From Acidimicrobiaceae bacterium (lineage in GTDB: Bacteria > Actinomycetota > Acidimicrobiia > Acidimicrobiales > Bog-793): a stretch of DNA of 53,640 bases. Numbering within the stretch: position 1 is the first letter of the stretch; each line of letters begins with the position of its first letter. The stretch lies in contig DAHUXW010000058.1 of assembly GCA_027306925.1 (NCBI GenBank), forward strand, positions 1 to 53,640. The letters are read 5' to 3'. The position numbers and the translations under genes were made by a program. Shown here one piece after another: positions 41,108-47,406 of this stretch. The notes below the pieces were generated by a model. It searched no databases. It was not told where the DNA came from and saw only the letters and a list, made by a program, of their open reading frames with translations.

Positions 41108-41123
<16 letters not shown>
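40128..41123 (-). CDS. Alpha-E domain protein
   Basis: 331 residues, almost all helical. The N-terminal LSRIAESLFWVGRYLERAEDTARILD is the alpha-E signature, and RFLVLGRSLERVDMTARLL repeats the motif. It always accompanies the circularly permuted ATP-grasp and transglutaminase proteins and probably scaffolds or assists peptide synthesis. GTG 41123 lies 16 bases inside the ATP-grasp gene, and the stop overlaps the transglutaminase start, so all three are tightly coupled. Confidence 0.92.
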
Positions 41124-42715
<1,592 letters not shown>

Positions 42716-42722
42716 CGGCCCA

Positions 42723-42728
42723 TGTGTA
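42723..42728 (-). promoter_or_regulatory. Leaderless -10 box (TACACA)
   Basis: TACACA ends 7 nt before GTG 42715 of the ATP-grasp operon. Confidence 0.35.
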
Positions 42729-42791
42729 CCAAGGGCGTGTTTCGGCACGATTTCGCCCGCCGCCCTGCGGAGCTGGCGATCGACCACCTGC

Positions 42792-43712
42792 TCAGGGTAC
42801 CGGGTCGCCGGCGTCCGGCCCGGGGCGGCGCGCGCCGGCGCGGATCACGCGCGAGAGCGCGGACACGACGTCGTCGCCCTCGCGCACGAGCGCGTCGACG
42901 CCGCGCACCGCGTCCGCGGCCGGATCGCCCGTCGCGAGCCCGCCGAGGAGCACCGGGAGCCGCGGCACGGCCGCGCGCACCGAGTCGACGACGGCCTGCG
43001 CGGCGGGGAGGTGCTCGGCCCGGGTCACGCCGACGCCGACCGCGACCGCGCGGGCCGAGCGCGTCGCGGCCGCTGCGAAGACCGCCGGAGGCACGTCCGC
43101 ACCGAGCTCGAGGACGTCGAAGCCGCCGAGCCGGACGAGGTCCGCGGCCATCGCGATCGGGAGGCCGTGCAGCTCGCCGAGCGGCGCGCCGAACACCACG
43201 ACGCCGCGCGACCGCCCGGGCCGTCGGACTCTCGCGCCGAGTCGTGACACGACGCGCGACGCGACCGCGGTCGCGAGGTGCTGGTCGGCCAGGTCGAGCT
43301 CGCCCGCCTCGCCCCGAGCGCCGATCGACGCGAGCGCGCCGCCGAGCATCTCGGTGTAGCAGTACGCGAGGTCGTGCGCGGACGCGAGGGCCGACTCGAC
43401 GACGCGCCACGCCGCCACCTCGTCGCCGGCGACGAGGTGGCGCTCGAGGCGTGCCGGCCACGGCGCGCCCGAGGTGGAAGCGCCGGCCGTGCCCGGCCCG
43501 CTCGGCGCCCGGGCGGCGAGCGGCGCGCGGGCGGCCGAGGCCGTGAACCTCGCGAGCGCGGCCGGCGAGACGACCCACCCGGTGCCCGAGCGCTCGGCGT
43601 CGAGCAGGCCCTGGCGCACGTAGCGGTACGCGGTCATGTAGTGGACGTGCAGCTCGGAAGCGACCTGCTTCAGGTTCATGGACTCGCGCCCGGCGGGCTC
43701 CGCCGCGGTCAT
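42792..43712 (-). CDS. CarH/MerR-like regulator with cobalamin-binding domain
   Basis: 306 residues. An N-terminal excisionase/MerR-type helix-turn-helix (NLKQVASELHVHYMTAYRYVRQGLL) is followed by a B12-binding helical domain (about 85-165) and a Rossmann B12-binding domain (about 169-290). The cobalamin base-off ligand motif reads E180-L-H182, with the axial His kept. In the helical domain, where CarH has W-x9-E-H, this protein has G134 and Q144-H145, so the Trp cap is missing. It is divergent from nrdAB across 173 bp, suggesting B12-responsive control of ribonucleotide reductase. ATG 43712 is chosen; ATG 43679 is possible. Confidence 0.8.
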   Translation of the reverse strand: MTAAEPAGRESMNLKQVASELHVHYMTAYRYVRQGLLDAERSGTGWVVSPAALARFTASAARAPLAARAPSGPGTAGASTSGAPWPARLERHLVAGDEVAAWRVVESALASAHDLAYCYTEMLGGALASIGARGEAGELDLADQHLATAVASRVVSRLGARVRRPGRSRGVVVFGAPLGELHGLPIAMAADLVRLGGFDVLELGADVPPAVFAAAATRSARAVAVGVGVTRAEHLPAAQAVVDSVRAAVPRLPVLLGGLATGDPAADAVRGVDALVREGDDVVSALSRVIRAGARRPGPDAGDPVP

Positions 43713-43775
43713 CGCGCCCTCGGGCGGCGGCCGACGGGCGCGACCGGTTGCGCGCTTAACACTGAAAGGCGGCCC

Positions 43776-43804
43776 TTGCGATACGCGAATCGCACTGGTG
43801 TAGT
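43776..43804 (+). promoter_or_regulatory. Candidate nrdAB promoter
   Basis: TTGCGA (43776-43781) and TGTAGT (43799-43804) are 17 bp apart, upstream of nrdA. The spacer holds the near-perfect palindrome described next. Confidence 0.5.
43778..43793. promoter_or_regulatory. Palindrome in nrdAB promoter spacer, candidate regulator operator
   Basis: GCGATACGCGAATCGC is symmetric at 14 of 16 positions (one mismatched pair) and sits between the -35 and -10 elements. A repressor bound here would block nrdAB. The divergent cobalamin-binding regulator is the obvious candidate. Inferred. Confidence 0.4.
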
Positions 43805-43850
43805 TAACAACATCTTGTACGTGGGACTCCAGGTACCACTACATCTGGGG
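43805..43850 (+). promoter_or_regulatory. Tandem NrdR-box-like elements
   Basis: ACAACATCTTGT (43807-43818) and CCACTACATCTGGG (43837-43850) share ACATCT with start positions 31 bp apart, three helical turns, just after the nrdAB -10 element. Paired boxes at this spacing upstream of RNR genes are the hallmark of NrdR repression. nrdR itself is not in the window. Confidence 0.6.
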
Positions 43851-43885
43851 GCACGGCGCGGTGAGCGCCGGCGAGGAGGACGACC

Positions 43886-46312
43886 GTGACGACTGCGACG
43901 CTCGACGAGACCGGTGGCGGAGCGCCACAGGAGCACCCGGCCGCGCCGGTGTCGATGCGCGTCCGCAAGCGGGACGGGTCGCTCGAGCCGGTCGACGTCG
44001 GCAAGATCGTGCGCGCGGTCGAGCGCTGCGCGGCCGGCCTCGAGCGCGTCGACCCGCTGCGCGTCGCGACCCGGACGATCTCCGGCCTGTGCGACGGCGC
44101 GACGACGACGGAGCTCGACGAGCTGTCGATCAGGATCGCAGCGTCGCTCGTGACCGAGGAGCCCGACTACTCGCGCCTCGCGGCGCGCCTGCTCGGTGCG
44201 GTCGTCGACAAGGAGGTTCGCAACCAGGACATCCAGTCGTTCTCGCAGTCGGTCGCCGCGAGCCACGCGCTCGGTCTCGTCGCGGCGCCGACCGCCCGGC
44301 TCGTAGCGACGCACAGCCGCAAGCTCGACGACGCGATCGTCCCGGGCCGGGGCGAGCTCTTCGAGCTGTTCGGGCTCCGGACCGTGTACGACCGCTACCT
44401 GTTGCGCCACCCGGACACGCGCGCCGTCCTCGAGACCCCCCAGTACTTCTTCCTGCGCGTCGCGTGCGGCCTCGCGACGGCGCCGGAGGAGGCCGCCGAG
44501 CTCTACGAGCAGATGTCGCTCCTGCGCTATCTGCCGTCGAGCCCGACGTTGTTCAACTCCGGCACGACCCATGCGCAGATGTCCTCGTGCTACGTGCTCG
44601 ACTCCCCGGCCGACGAGCTCGACGCGATCTACGCGCGCTACGGCGACATCGCGCGGCTCTCGAAGCACGCGGGCGGCATCGGTGTCGCGTTCCACCGGGT
44701 GCGGTCCCGAGGCTCGCTCATCCGGGGCACGAACGGCCTGTCGAACGGCATCGTGCCGTGGCTGAAGACGCTCGACGCGTCCGTGGCCGCGGTCAACCAG
44801 GGCGGGCGTCGCAAGGGAGCGGCGTGCGTCTACCTCGAGACCTGGCACGCGGACATCGAGGACTTCCTCGAGCTGCGCGACTCGACGGGGGACGAGGCCC
44901 GCCGCGCCCACAACCTGAACTTCGCCAACTGGGTGCCGGACCTGTTCATGGAGCGGGTCGAGAAGGACGAGGACTGGTCGCTGTTCGACCCGAAGCGGGC
45001 TCCGGAGCTGTGCGACACCTACGGCGAGGAGTTCGCGCGCGCGTACCGCGCGGCCGAGGACGTCGGGCGCTACGAGCGCCGGCTCCCCGCGCGCCAGCTC
45101 TACACGCGGATGATGCGGACGCTCGCGCAGACCGGCAACGGGTGGATGGCGTTCAAGGACGCGGCGAACGCGAAGTGCAACCAGACGGGCGCGCCGGGCA
45201 ACGTCGTGCACCTCTCGAATCTCTGCACGGAGATCATCGAGGTCACGAGCGCCTCGGAGACCGCGGTCTGCAACCTCGGATCGGTGAACCTCGGCCGGCT
45301 CGTCGAGGAGGGCGCCTTCAGCTTCGACCGGCTCGCCGCGACCGTGCGGATGGCGGTCACGTTCCTCGACCGCGTCGTGGACCTCAACTACTACCCGACG
45401 CCCGACGCGGCGCGCTCGAACGCGCGCTGGCGGCCCGTCGGGCTCGGCGTGATGGGACTGCAGGACGTCTTCTTCAAGCTCCGCCTGCCCTTCGACTCGC
45501 CCGAGGCCCGGGAGCTGTCGCGCGCGATCGCGGAGGAGGTCTACTTCAGCGCGCTCTGGCGCTCGACGGAGCTCGCGCAGGAGCACGGCGCGCATCCCGG
45601 CTTCGCCGAGACGCGCGCCGCGGCGGGCGCGCTGCAGTGCGACCTGTGGGGAGTCGAGCCGAGCGACCCGGAGCGCTTCGGGCGGCTACGCGAGCGGATC
45701 GGGCGCGTCGGGCTGCGCAACTCGCTGCTCGTCGCGATCGCGCCGACCGCGACGATCGCGGCGATCTGCGGCGCGTACGAGTGCGTCGAGCCGCAGGTGT
45801 CGAACCTGTTCAAGCGGGAGACCCTCTCGGGCGAGTTCGTCCAGCTGAACACCTACCTCGTGCGCGACCTGCAGGCGCGCGGGCTGTGGACCGACGAGGT
45901 CGTCGGGGCGATCCGCCGGGACGAGGGCTCGGTCCAGCGGGTGGCGGCGATCCCCGAGGAGCTCCGTGCCCTCTATCGCACGGCCTGGGAGCTGCCGATG
46001 CGCTCGCTCGTCGACATGGCCGCCGAGCGCGGTGCGTTCGTCGACCAGAGCCAGTCGCTCAACTTGTTCGTCGAGTCGCCGACGATCGGCAAGCTCTCCT
46101 CGATGTACCTCCACGCGTGGAAGCGGGGCCTGAAGACCACGTACTACTTGCGGTCGCGCCCCGCGACGCGCATCGCCCAGGTGCGCGGCGCTCCCGGTGC
46201 CGCCGCTGGAGCGAGCGACGGAGCGACCGCGCGCCCGGGCGCAGCGGCGGACGACCGCGCGGCCCTGGCCTGCTCGCTCGAGAACCCCGAGAGCTGCGAG
46301 GCGTGCCAGTGA
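43886..46312 (+). CDS. nrdA: Class I ribonucleotide reductase, alpha subunit
   Basis: 808 residues. An N-terminal ATP-cone (about 23-112) gives overall allosteric control. The active-site cysteines are C235 (SSCYVL), the thiyl C447 (NLCTEI) and C462 (VCNLGSVNL). The radical-path Tyr pair is in KTTYYLRSR, and the C-terminal redox pair is in ESCEACQ. It reduces ribonucleotides with the NrdB radical and thioredoxin. A C-terminal Ala/Gly-rich linker precedes the Cys tail. nrdB overlaps by GTGA. I first considered a B12-dependent NrdJ; the following beta subunit argues against it. Confidence 0.95.
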   Translation: MTTATLDETGGGAPQEHPAAPVSMRVRKRDGSLEPVDVGKIVRAVERCAAGLERVDPLRVATRTISGLCDGATTTELDELSIRIAASLVTEEPDYSRLAARLLGAVVDKEVRNQDIQSFSQSVAASHALGLVAAPTARLVATHSRKLDDAIVPGRGELFELFGLRTVYDRYLLRHPDTRAVLETPQYFFLRVACGLATAPEEAAELYEQMSLLRYLPSSPTLFNSGTTHAQMSSCYVLDSPADELDAIYARYGDIARLSKHAGGIGVAFHRVRSRGSLIRGTNGLSNGIVPWLKTLDASVAAVNQGGRRKGAACVYLETWHADIEDFLELRDSTGDEARRAHNLNFANWVPDLFMERVEKDEDWSLFDPKRAPELCDTYGEEFARAYRAAEDVGRYERRLPARQLYTRMMRTLAQTGNGWMAFKDAANAKCNQTGAPGNVVHLSNLCTEIIEVTSASETAVCNLGSVNLGRLVEEGAFSFDRLAATVRMAVTFLDRVVDLNYYPTPDAARSNARWRPVGLGVMGLQDVFFKLRLPFDSPEARELSRAIAEEVYFSALWRSTELAQEHGAHPGFAETRAAAGALQCDLWGVEPSDPERFGRLRERIGRVGLRNSLLVAIAPTATIAAICGAYECVEPQVSNLFKRETLSGEFVQLNTYLVRDLQARGLWTDEVVGAIRRDEGSVQRVAAIPEELRALYRTAWELPMRSLVDMAAERGAFVDQSQSLNLFVESPTIGKLSSMYLHAWKRGLKTTYYLRSRPATRIAQVRGAPGAAAGASDGATARPGAAADDRAALACSLENPESCEACQ

Positions 46313-47406
46313 GCGCGCGCTTCGCGGCCGCGCCGCGCGGGCGCCCCGCCGCGGGGGCGGAGGGGGCCGTCGCCGGTGCGCCGAGCGGGGGCGCGCGCGA
46401 GCGCCGGGCCATCCTCGACCCGGGCCTCGACCTCACCCTCCGGCCGATGCGCTACCCGGAGTTCTACGAGCGCTACCGTGCCGCGATCCGCAACACGTGG
46501 ACGGTAGAGGAGGTCGACTTCTCCGGCGACCTCGTCGACCTCGAGCGGCGGCTGCTCCCCGCCGAGCGGCACCTCGTGCGGCGCCTCGTCGCGTTCTTCG
46601 CGACGGGCGACACGATCGTCGCGAACAACCTCGTGCTCAACCTCTACCGGCACTGCAACGCGCCCGAGGCGCGCCTGTACCTCTCGCGCCAGCTGTTCGA
46701 GGAGGCCCAGCACGTCCAGTTCTACCTGACCTTGCTCGACACCTACGTCCCGGACCACGACGAGCGCGCCGAAGCGTTTGCCGCGATCGAGCACGTGCCG
46801 TCGATCGGGGCGAAGGCCGGATTCTGCTTCAGGTGGATGGACACGGTGTCCTCGCTCGACCGGCTCGAGAGCCGGTCCCACCGTCGGCGGTTCCTGCTGA
46901 ACCTCGTGTGCTTCGCCGCGTGCATCGAGGGGCTCTTCTTCTTCGCGGCGTTCGCCTACGTGTACTTCCTTCGCTCGAAGGGTGTGCTGAACGGCCTCGC
47001 CTCCGGGACCAACTGGGTCTTTCGCGACGAGAGCGGTCACATGGACTTCGCCTTCGCGCTCGTCGACGTCGTGCGCGCCGAGGAGCCGGAGCTGTTCGAC
47101 GACGAGCTCGCCGCGCGGATCGTCTCGATGGTCGAGGACGCCGTCGAGGCGGAGACCGCGTTCGCCGCGGACCTCCTCGCGGACGGAGTGCCCGGGCTTT
47201 CGCTCGCGCAGACCCGCGAGTATCTCGAGTACGTCGCCGACCGCCGGCTCGCCCGGCTCGGGATCCCGCCCCGTTACGGGACGGCGAACCCGTTCGGGTT
47301 CATGGACCTGCAGGACGTGCAGGAGCTCGCGAACTTCTTCGAGCGCACGGTCTCGGCCTACCAGGTCGGGGTGCCGGGCGACGTCGCGTTCGACGAGGAG
47401 TTCTGA
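46309..47406 (+). CDS. nrdB: Class I ribonucleotide reductase, beta subunit
   Basis: 365 residues. Di-metal ligands are D101 (TGDTIVAN), E132 and H135 (FEEAQH), the Glu in CIEGLFFF, and the Glu and His of RDESGHMDF. The radical Tyr is Y139, four residues after H135, so this is a tyrosyl-radical enzyme and not the class Ic type with Phe. GTG 46309 overlaps the nrdA stop. The N-terminal 35 residues are Ala/Gly/Arg-rich and probably flexible. The C-terminus ends FDEEF, the tail that docks on NrdA. Confidence 0.95.
   Translation: MSARFAAAPRGRPAAGAEGAVAGAPSGGARERRAILDPGLDLTLRPMRYPEFYERYRAAIRNTWTVEEVDFSGDLVDLERRLLPAERHLVRRLVAFFATGDTIVANNLVLNLYRHCNAPEARLYLSRQLFEEAQHVQFYLTLLDTYVPDHDERAEAFAAIEHVPSIGAKAGFCFRWMDTVSSLDRLESRSHRRRFLLNLVCFAACIEGLFFFAAFAYVYFLRSKGVLNGLASGTNWVFRDESGHMDFAFALVDVVRAEEPELFDDELAARIVSMVEDAVEAETAFAADLLADGVPGLSLAQTREYLEYVADRRLARLGIPPRYGTANPFGFMDLQDVQELANFFERTVSAYQVGVPGDVAFDEEF

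Follow-up and report, generated by a model that had tools for sequence, protein, structure and literature searches.

The window analyzed here, a 53,640-nucleotide stretch from an Acidimicrobiaceae genome that is 97.6% complete, encodes a putative vitamin B12-binding transcription regulator (hereafter REG) divergent from the nrdAB genes for a class Ia ribonucleotide reductase (RNR). We consider it reasonably probable that REG is a dedicated cobalamin-responsive switch, re-used for this accessory RNR, that raises nrdAB when cobalamin is scarce. REG would bind an element of the pattern TTARYRCYNRAWG at 43755–43769, ~50 bp upstream of the putative nrdAB transcription start. With plentiful cobalamin the B12-dependent NrdJ would suffice and nrdAB would be low; with scarce cobalamin nrdAB would be expressed, while NrdR would act separately, on boxes that it has for itself in the core promoter. 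Cobalamin binding by REG and the sign of regulation are both inferred, and we favor an activator switched off by cobalamin as likelier than a repressor active in the cobalamin-bound form. A protein-based B12 switch fits because the gene pair recurs across families, together with a candidate operator, the presence of NrdJ and the failure to find CbiC, and because a cobalamin riboswitch precedes the regulator in two relatives. Below, genomes carry G-numbers (G000 being the window's own), loci L-numbers and families f-numbers.

42792–43712, reverse strand: REG, an open reading frame (ORF) of 306 amino acids, divergent from nrdAB, with an excisionase-type helix-turn-helix (HTH) at about residues 12–58, a B12-binding_2 domain at 88–158 and a B12-binding domain at 172–286.
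43755–43769, forward strand: candidate REG operator CTTAACACTGAAAGG, of the nrd-clade pattern TTARYRCYNRAWG, a variant of the family palindrome ATTTAGYRCTAAAT.
43886–46312, forward strand: nrdA, class Ia RNR alpha subunit, with a GTG start and AGGAGG upstream.
46309–47406, forward strand: nrdB, beta subunit (PF00268), with a likely GTG start at 46309 overlapping the nrdA stop codon.

The preliminary description of this locus, an HTH protein with both B12-binding domains divergent from nrdA across 173 bp, is confirmed by the ORF, the Pfam scores (42.2 bits for B12-binding_2, 42.2 for B12-binding, and 26.4 for HTH_17, just below its cut-off of 27) and the spacer (43713–43885). The class I alpha model TIGR02506 gives nrdA 700 bits. 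The HTH had been called MerR/excisionase-type; HTH_17 matches it, excise and HTH_23 do so weakly, and no MerR model matches. The idea of a protein B12 switch for nrdAB fits the linkage, the candidate operator and NrdJ; the palindrome proposed as its site is not supported, CarH-type light sensing is unlikely and a repressor is not favored. The element at 43755–43769, the tandem NrdR boxes and the alteration in REG's photoreceptor motif were not part of that description.

Judged from its sequence, REG descends from B12-based photoreceptors akin to CarH/LitR and is a probable transcription regulator, its HTH being of the excisionase type. Its lower-ligand motif E-L-H-G-L-P (within GELHGLP, ligand His182) agrees with the D/E-x-H-x2-G/P pattern of CarH/LitR, and this cobalt-ligand histidine is kept in all 137 aligned distinct REG relatives. 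A profile of 15 REG relatives matches CarH (5c8d_A) at an E-value of 6e-12, and REG itself scores 28.9 bits against the NCBI CarH model (cut-off 400). The AlphaFold2 model of REG (mean predicted local distance difference test score 82.9, predicted template modeling score 0.66) resembles, in structure comparison, the B12 domains of photocobilins, of a Chloracidobacterium MerR-family protein, of CarH and of LitR. REG thus has in common with CarH/LitR of Thermus and Myxococcus the two-part B12 domain, the E-x-H-x2-G/P motif and the fold (matches to 5C8D-F and 3WHP), whereas it differs in its HTH_17 excisionase-type rather than MerR-type head, in its lost W-x9-E-H motif, in its target, nrdAB, and perhaps in its candidate site, which is palindromic. 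In both sequence and fold, photocobilins (8j2w, 8j2x, 8j2y) and the MerR-family protein 8jbs rank with the nearest B12 domains of known structure; in contrast to REG, which carries an HTH, photocobilins add bilin photochemistry for enzyme control (PMC10979010).

Photoreceptor activity depends critically on the motif W-x9-E-H, which makes contact with the adenosyl group (PMC9304148). REG reads G-x9-Q-H (ARGEAGELDLADQH) in its place, compared with, for example, ERWAAGELSVAEEH in CarH-type relatives. All three of W, E and H are present in 124 of the 137 distinct relatives, and the wider family is thus light-type. Among the 13 with an altered motif, one is a fragment (L296) and the other 12 form a single clade (support 0.993), made up of G000, G014, G007, G032, G040, G164, G174, L014, G105, G243, G197 and G100. 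Every nrd-linked REG, that of G164 included, sits in this clade of the 137-row tree, and a careful 43-row tree without G164 and G197 recovers a 10-row nrd clade with support 100/100. The motif reads G..QH in G000, G..QY in G014, W..QH in G007, F..RH in G032, S..WP in G040 and I..QY in G174, and the capping loop is shortened in G164, L014, G105, G243 and G197. CarH-type light sensing by REG is unlikely because this adenosylcobalamin-capping motif is lost.

A search for the gene pair in relatives, suggested in the preliminary description, found REG and nrdA as neighbors in six genomes, which belong to three families. Within the 35 genomes of the window's family, nrdA was found at E ≤ 1e-60 in three (G000, G007, G014), and in G032 a 59-amino-acid piece of nrdA borders REG where the contig ends; exactly these four carry an nrd-type REG, those of G014, G007 and G032 being 58–62% identical to REG of G000. 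Six further family genomes carry a light-type REG (38–48% identity), and nrdA was not found in any of them. The divergent arrangement recurs in two genomes outside the family, G040 (f7) and G164 (f3; REG cut by the contig end), and in G174 (f24) nrdA lies ~4 kb downstream of REG on the same contig. Among all loci collected, both genes occur together only in those of these seven genomes (G000, G014, G007, G032, G040, G164 and G174). The sample of 397 genomes of the order contains a REG relative at E ≤ 1e-15 in 110 and nrdA at E ≤ 1e-60 in 146, and all 11 G-numbered clade genomes carry nrdA. A phylum-wide search of 396 genomes found 21 matching REG at E ≤ 1e-25; all of the new loci from it (L193–L207) retain W-x9-E-H and none has nrdA beside REG. 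In f7, 123 of 221 genomes match; including the loci of 28 of the others gave the motif table 19 new distinct rows, all of which fall outside the nrd clade. The spread of the REG-nrdA cassette is patchy, because no f7 genome other than G040 itself has a REG more than 48% identical to that of G040. The cluster between REG and nrdA in G174 (L074:1123–5156) comprises a Peripla_BP_2 gene, a FecCD/BtuC-like permease gene and a weak FhuF-like gene; the best models for the transporter are of F420-0 and BtuC types, all below cut-off.

REG presumably binds 43755–43769. The spacers of G000, G014, G007, G032, G040 and G164 have TTARYRCYNRAWG-like elements in common (TTATCACCAAATG in G164). With a weight matrix made from the sites of other genomes only, 43755 ranks first of 107,252 window positions, at 19.1 bits vs. 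10.0 for the next. Scored with its own genome left out, each linked site reaches 16.2–22.8 bits, except for the G174 nrdA site; the sites having first been picked by eye, before the matrix, such leave-out scores answer the circularity only partly. When six genomes were scanned with the pattern, 10 occurrences were found, of which seven lie in REG/nrdA spacers, two in the G174 cluster and one elsewhere (G032:C415), the pattern having been written from these same sites and a backwards control pattern occurring 15 times. The nrdA upstreams examined were 80 that were fetched plus those of G000, G007, G040 and G174, from the 146 genomes with nrdA, and the REG relatives were mainly those stronger than ~1e-29. 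Among the 80 upstreams the strict pattern is absent, and the matrix has G164 as the sole high scorer, at 24.5 bits (20.4 once its own site is excluded) against 15.2 for the runner-up; G164 turned out to be REG-linked.

Other REG loci, nearly all light-type, contain 11 distinct ATTTAGYRCTAAAT-like sites at up to two mismatches, 10 of them intergenic, compared with 0–8 sites (mean 2) for 20 shuffled control palindromes. The candidate site is an imperfect palindrome; G007 and G032 alone have a second site, 21 bp from the first. CarH operators are tandem 11-bp direct repeats (PMC8156234). In G174, two strong REG-type sites occur in a divergent spacer of L074 (4083–4095 and 4189–4201), away from REG and upstream of the transporter gene and of the gene preceding nrdA. 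The 16-bp palindrome GCGATACGCGAATCGC at 43778–43793, earlier suggested as the place where a repressor would act, did not hold up and is at chance level: it pairs at seven of eight positions, as do or better 151 windows of 16 bp in the 53.6 kb, itself included, a search of the G014, G007, G032, G040, G164 and G174 spacers did not turn it up, and it lies on the −35 and spacer of the likely nrdA promoter. A CIRCE/HrcA site (controlling inverted repeat of chaperone expression), which we take to read TTAGCACTC, was considered as G007 reads TTAGCACTCAATG; it was rejected, no second half being seen by eye.

The likely nrdA promoter downstream of the candidate operator is made up of the following elements:

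43776–43781, forward strand: likely degenerate −35, TTGCGA, 20 bp past the start of the TTARYRC core.
43799–43804, forward strand: likely −10, TGTAGT, after a 17-bp spacer and conserved in relatives.
43805–43820, forward strand: NrdR box 1, TAACAACATCTTGTAC, of the best tandem pair (27 of 32 positions, period 31).
43836–43851, forward strand: NrdR box 2, CCACTACATCTGGGGG, in tandem with box 1.

A −10 of TGTAGT or TGTAAT is common to the spacers of G000, G014, G007, G032, G040 and G164, along with NrdR boxes. The distance from the site to the −10 is 43 bp in G000, G014, G007 and G032, 42 bp in G164 and 54 bp in G040, and the second sites of G007 and G032 lie at 64 bp; these distances form steps of about one or two whole helix turns. 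The −35 matches TTGACA at no more than four of six positions in G000, G014, G007, G032 and G164. At least five of six match in 38 of the 73 nrdA upstreams with such a −10 (in the set of 80, G164 included), a contrast that is modest because a best-of-several scan favors high scores in both sets. Given its place upstream of a degenerate −35, in roughly fixed helical phase, the REG site at about −50 is read, with moderate confidence, as that of an activator, and a repressor is not the favored reading.

NrdR is a separate ATP-cone repressor, and the two boxes were identified with what we take to be its consensus. As in the NrdR regulon, tandem boxes 31 bp apart occur in this genome at both nrdAB and nrdJ, the nrdJ promoter reading TTGACA-18-TGTAAT with its pair (28 of 32 positions) and without a REG site; in contrast to NrdR, REG would be an added, nrdAB-specific layer. 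Pairs 31–32 bp apart (26–29 of 32) are found in G000, G014, G007, G032 and G174, and G040 and G164 have two boxes ~42 bp apart by eye. A rough tandem-box scan flagged 12 of the 80 other nrdA upstreams, a low count that reflects either a weak scan or many upstreams without such pairs.

The nrdJ gene that the preliminary description suggested looking for elsewhere in the genome is present (C98:10701–12584; 595.6 bits, cut-off 400). Across the 30 genomes checked nrdJ is over cut-off in 27, with pieces only in G012 and G100, and across the ten clade genomes checked (all G-numbered ones but G197) it is over cut-off in eight, with pieces in G100 and no match in G164, where the single hit is nrdA. 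G000 yielded a single cobalamin riboswitch, at 31.9 bits against a cut-off of 31.5. Downstream of it lies a substrate-binding-protein gene (Peripla_BP_2) of putative uptake function, whose best NCBI models are TIGR04281 (128 bits) and BtuF (75 bits), both below cut-off. De novo corrin synthesis is probably missing from G000 and B12 imported, because no CbiC was found; this single marker family is present in 3 of 30 genomes searched.

Cobalamin riboswitches usually lower the downstream gene when B12 is high. Upstream of REG and in its sense, one is found in G164 (46.6 bits) and in L014, from a named Acidimicrobiales metagenome-assembled genome (51.8 bits; cut-off 31.5); by lowering REG at high B12 it would fit an activator, not a holo-repressor. 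An Rfam scan of 42000–45000 gave no matches, in agreement with the earlier remark that no B12 riboswitch-like sequence is seen here, and hence no cobalamin riboswitch lies upstream of nrdAB or REG in the window. Separately, in G381, of the same order, a sense cobalamin riboswitch of 102 bits lies upstream of nrdA (L173:173–382); apart from G164 and G381, 78 of the 80 nrdA upstreams gave no Rfam match at E ≤ 0.1.

Several observations weigh against a cobalamin switch dedicated to nrdAB. G164, with a riboswitch before REG, gives no nrdJ match at a genome completeness of 92%. REG of G000 has no riboswitch ahead of it, and none was found at the REG genes of G105, G243, G197 and G100 in the stretches examined, which upstream of REG are short in G105 and G100 because of contig ends. 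In these same four of the 12 clade members nrdA is on a different contig from REG, and the G105 nrdA upstream is without a REG site; the clade genomes are mostly draft assemblies, and the four from the window's family are not independent. In G174 the site beside nrdA is weak (12.1 bits, within background) and gives 59 or 73 bp to the −10, and a second, upstream −10 candidate in G007 would give 29 and 50 bp. A good −35 is kept in G040 (5/6) and G174 (6/6). The candidate site could also serve REG's own promoter. Finally, and as the chief reservation, REG may not need cobalamin, because CarA lost W-x9-E-H, keeps the B12 motif and works without B12.

The opposite sign, with the same physiology, forms part of the overall case for a cobalamin switch, and taken alone we regard it as unlikely: cobalamin-bound REG would repress at 43755–43769 and be released when cobalamin is scarce. 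This would follow the logic of CarH, which when loaded with B12 binds its operator and blocks transcription in the dark (PMC4557120, PMC9304148), and the family site of L089 overlaps a likely −10 (by eye). The position of the REG site upstream of a degenerate −35, in roughly fixed helical phase, argues against it, and a riboswitch lowering REG at high B12, as would be expected in G164 and L014, would work against such a repressor.

Slightly less likely is a regulator of nrdAB that, like CarA, is independent of B12, keeps the B12 fold as a scaffold and answers some other cue, for instance redox state, oxygen or an antirepressor protein. Myxococcus xanthus CarA is CarH-derived, has kept the B12 motif and lost the intact W-x9-E-H, and is B12-independent (PMC9304148), and the motif is altered in all 12 clade members, in some with a shortened loop. 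CarA differs from REG in DNA-binding head, target and lineage. The ligand histidine kept in 137 of 137 relatives, the riboswitch ahead of REG in two of them, and the occurrence of nrdA in 11 of 11 G-numbered clade genomes with nrdJ over cut-off in eight of ten speak against this reading.

It is improbable that REG is still a CarH-type light sensor, raising nrdAB in light to supply deoxynucleoside triphosphates for the repair of ultraviolet damage. The fold matches CarH and photocobilin structures, G007 retains the Trp, and the sister group keeps W-x9-E-H and adjoins photolyase, ImuB-like/DnaE2-like, cyclopropane-fatty-acid (CFA) synthase and flavin-oxidase genes. In the nrd-linked members, however, the capping W is replaced by G, F, S, P or I except in G007, the capping E is Q, R, W or missing in every one, and the REG site lies upstream of the −35, whereas that of L089 overlaps the likely −10. 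Least probable of all is that 43755–43769 only autoregulates REG, with nrdAB under NrdR alone and a merely historical neighborhood: divergent promoters do share the spacer and NrdR boxes occur at both nrdA and nrdJ, but the distance to the nrdA −10 is kept at nearly whole helix turns across three families, the strong G174 sites are away from REG, and nrdA occurrence tracks the nrd-type REG in 35 family genomes.

Next to REG in the window, a gene for a circularly permuted ATP-grasp protein (41108–42787) begins on the same strand a few bases past the REG stop codon, and a relative of it is likewise downstream of REG in G014 (L016). REG may share an operon with this gene, given the same-strand adjacency and its repetition in G014. 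The neighbors of light-type REG genes are photolyase (L024, L080), WhiB (L080), CFA synthase (L020) and flavin oxidase (L089) genes; in L080 (5001–5423) and L051 (1327; G308) the WhiB gene lies downstream of REG, and a family palindrome sits between the two. The light-type REG of L010 has as neighbors an impB-like gene, a DNA polymerase III alpha gene and one for cobalamin adenosyltransferase. At this locus (L010:2081–12828; also L012 and L013) an intact-motif REG is upstream of two polymerase genes, one ImuB-like and the other for a DnaE2-like polymerase III alpha; the cobalamin adenosyltransferase gene lies further upstream, and L079, L082, L090 and L091 are similar by eye. B12 light control of mutagenic repair at such loci looks possible.

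A B12-controlled class Ia RNR beside NrdJ has a precedent in Streptomyces, where nrdABS is under a cobalamin riboswitch and NrdJ is also present (PMC4991794, citing Borovok 2006). The two systems would do the same job physiologically, in Streptomyces through an RNA element and here, where the spacer has no riboswitch, through a protein. Among the matches listed, judged by titles and abstract openings and with subscription papers mostly outside the search, no B12-binding transcription factor for ribonucleotide reductase was found, and the available part of a B12 review that names both CarH and nrdA does not connect them.

The CarH family is known for light, and to our knowledge few protein B12 sensors control gene expression. 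In a fuller scenario, which we put forward tentatively and rate somewhat below an even chance, a photoreceptor lineage without its light cap became a cobalamin-scarcity activator, in a patchy nrdAB cassette among B12 importers that is sometimes itself riboswitch-controlled, a double B12 lock. The defined site, the defined clade and the residue changes offer testable handles. A dedicated protein switch between B12-dependent and B12-independent RNR would match, in protein form, the nrdABS riboswitch, and would illustrate how a photoreceptor can become a metabolite sensor; if true, a single order has solved the same problem both with a protein and with a riboswitch.

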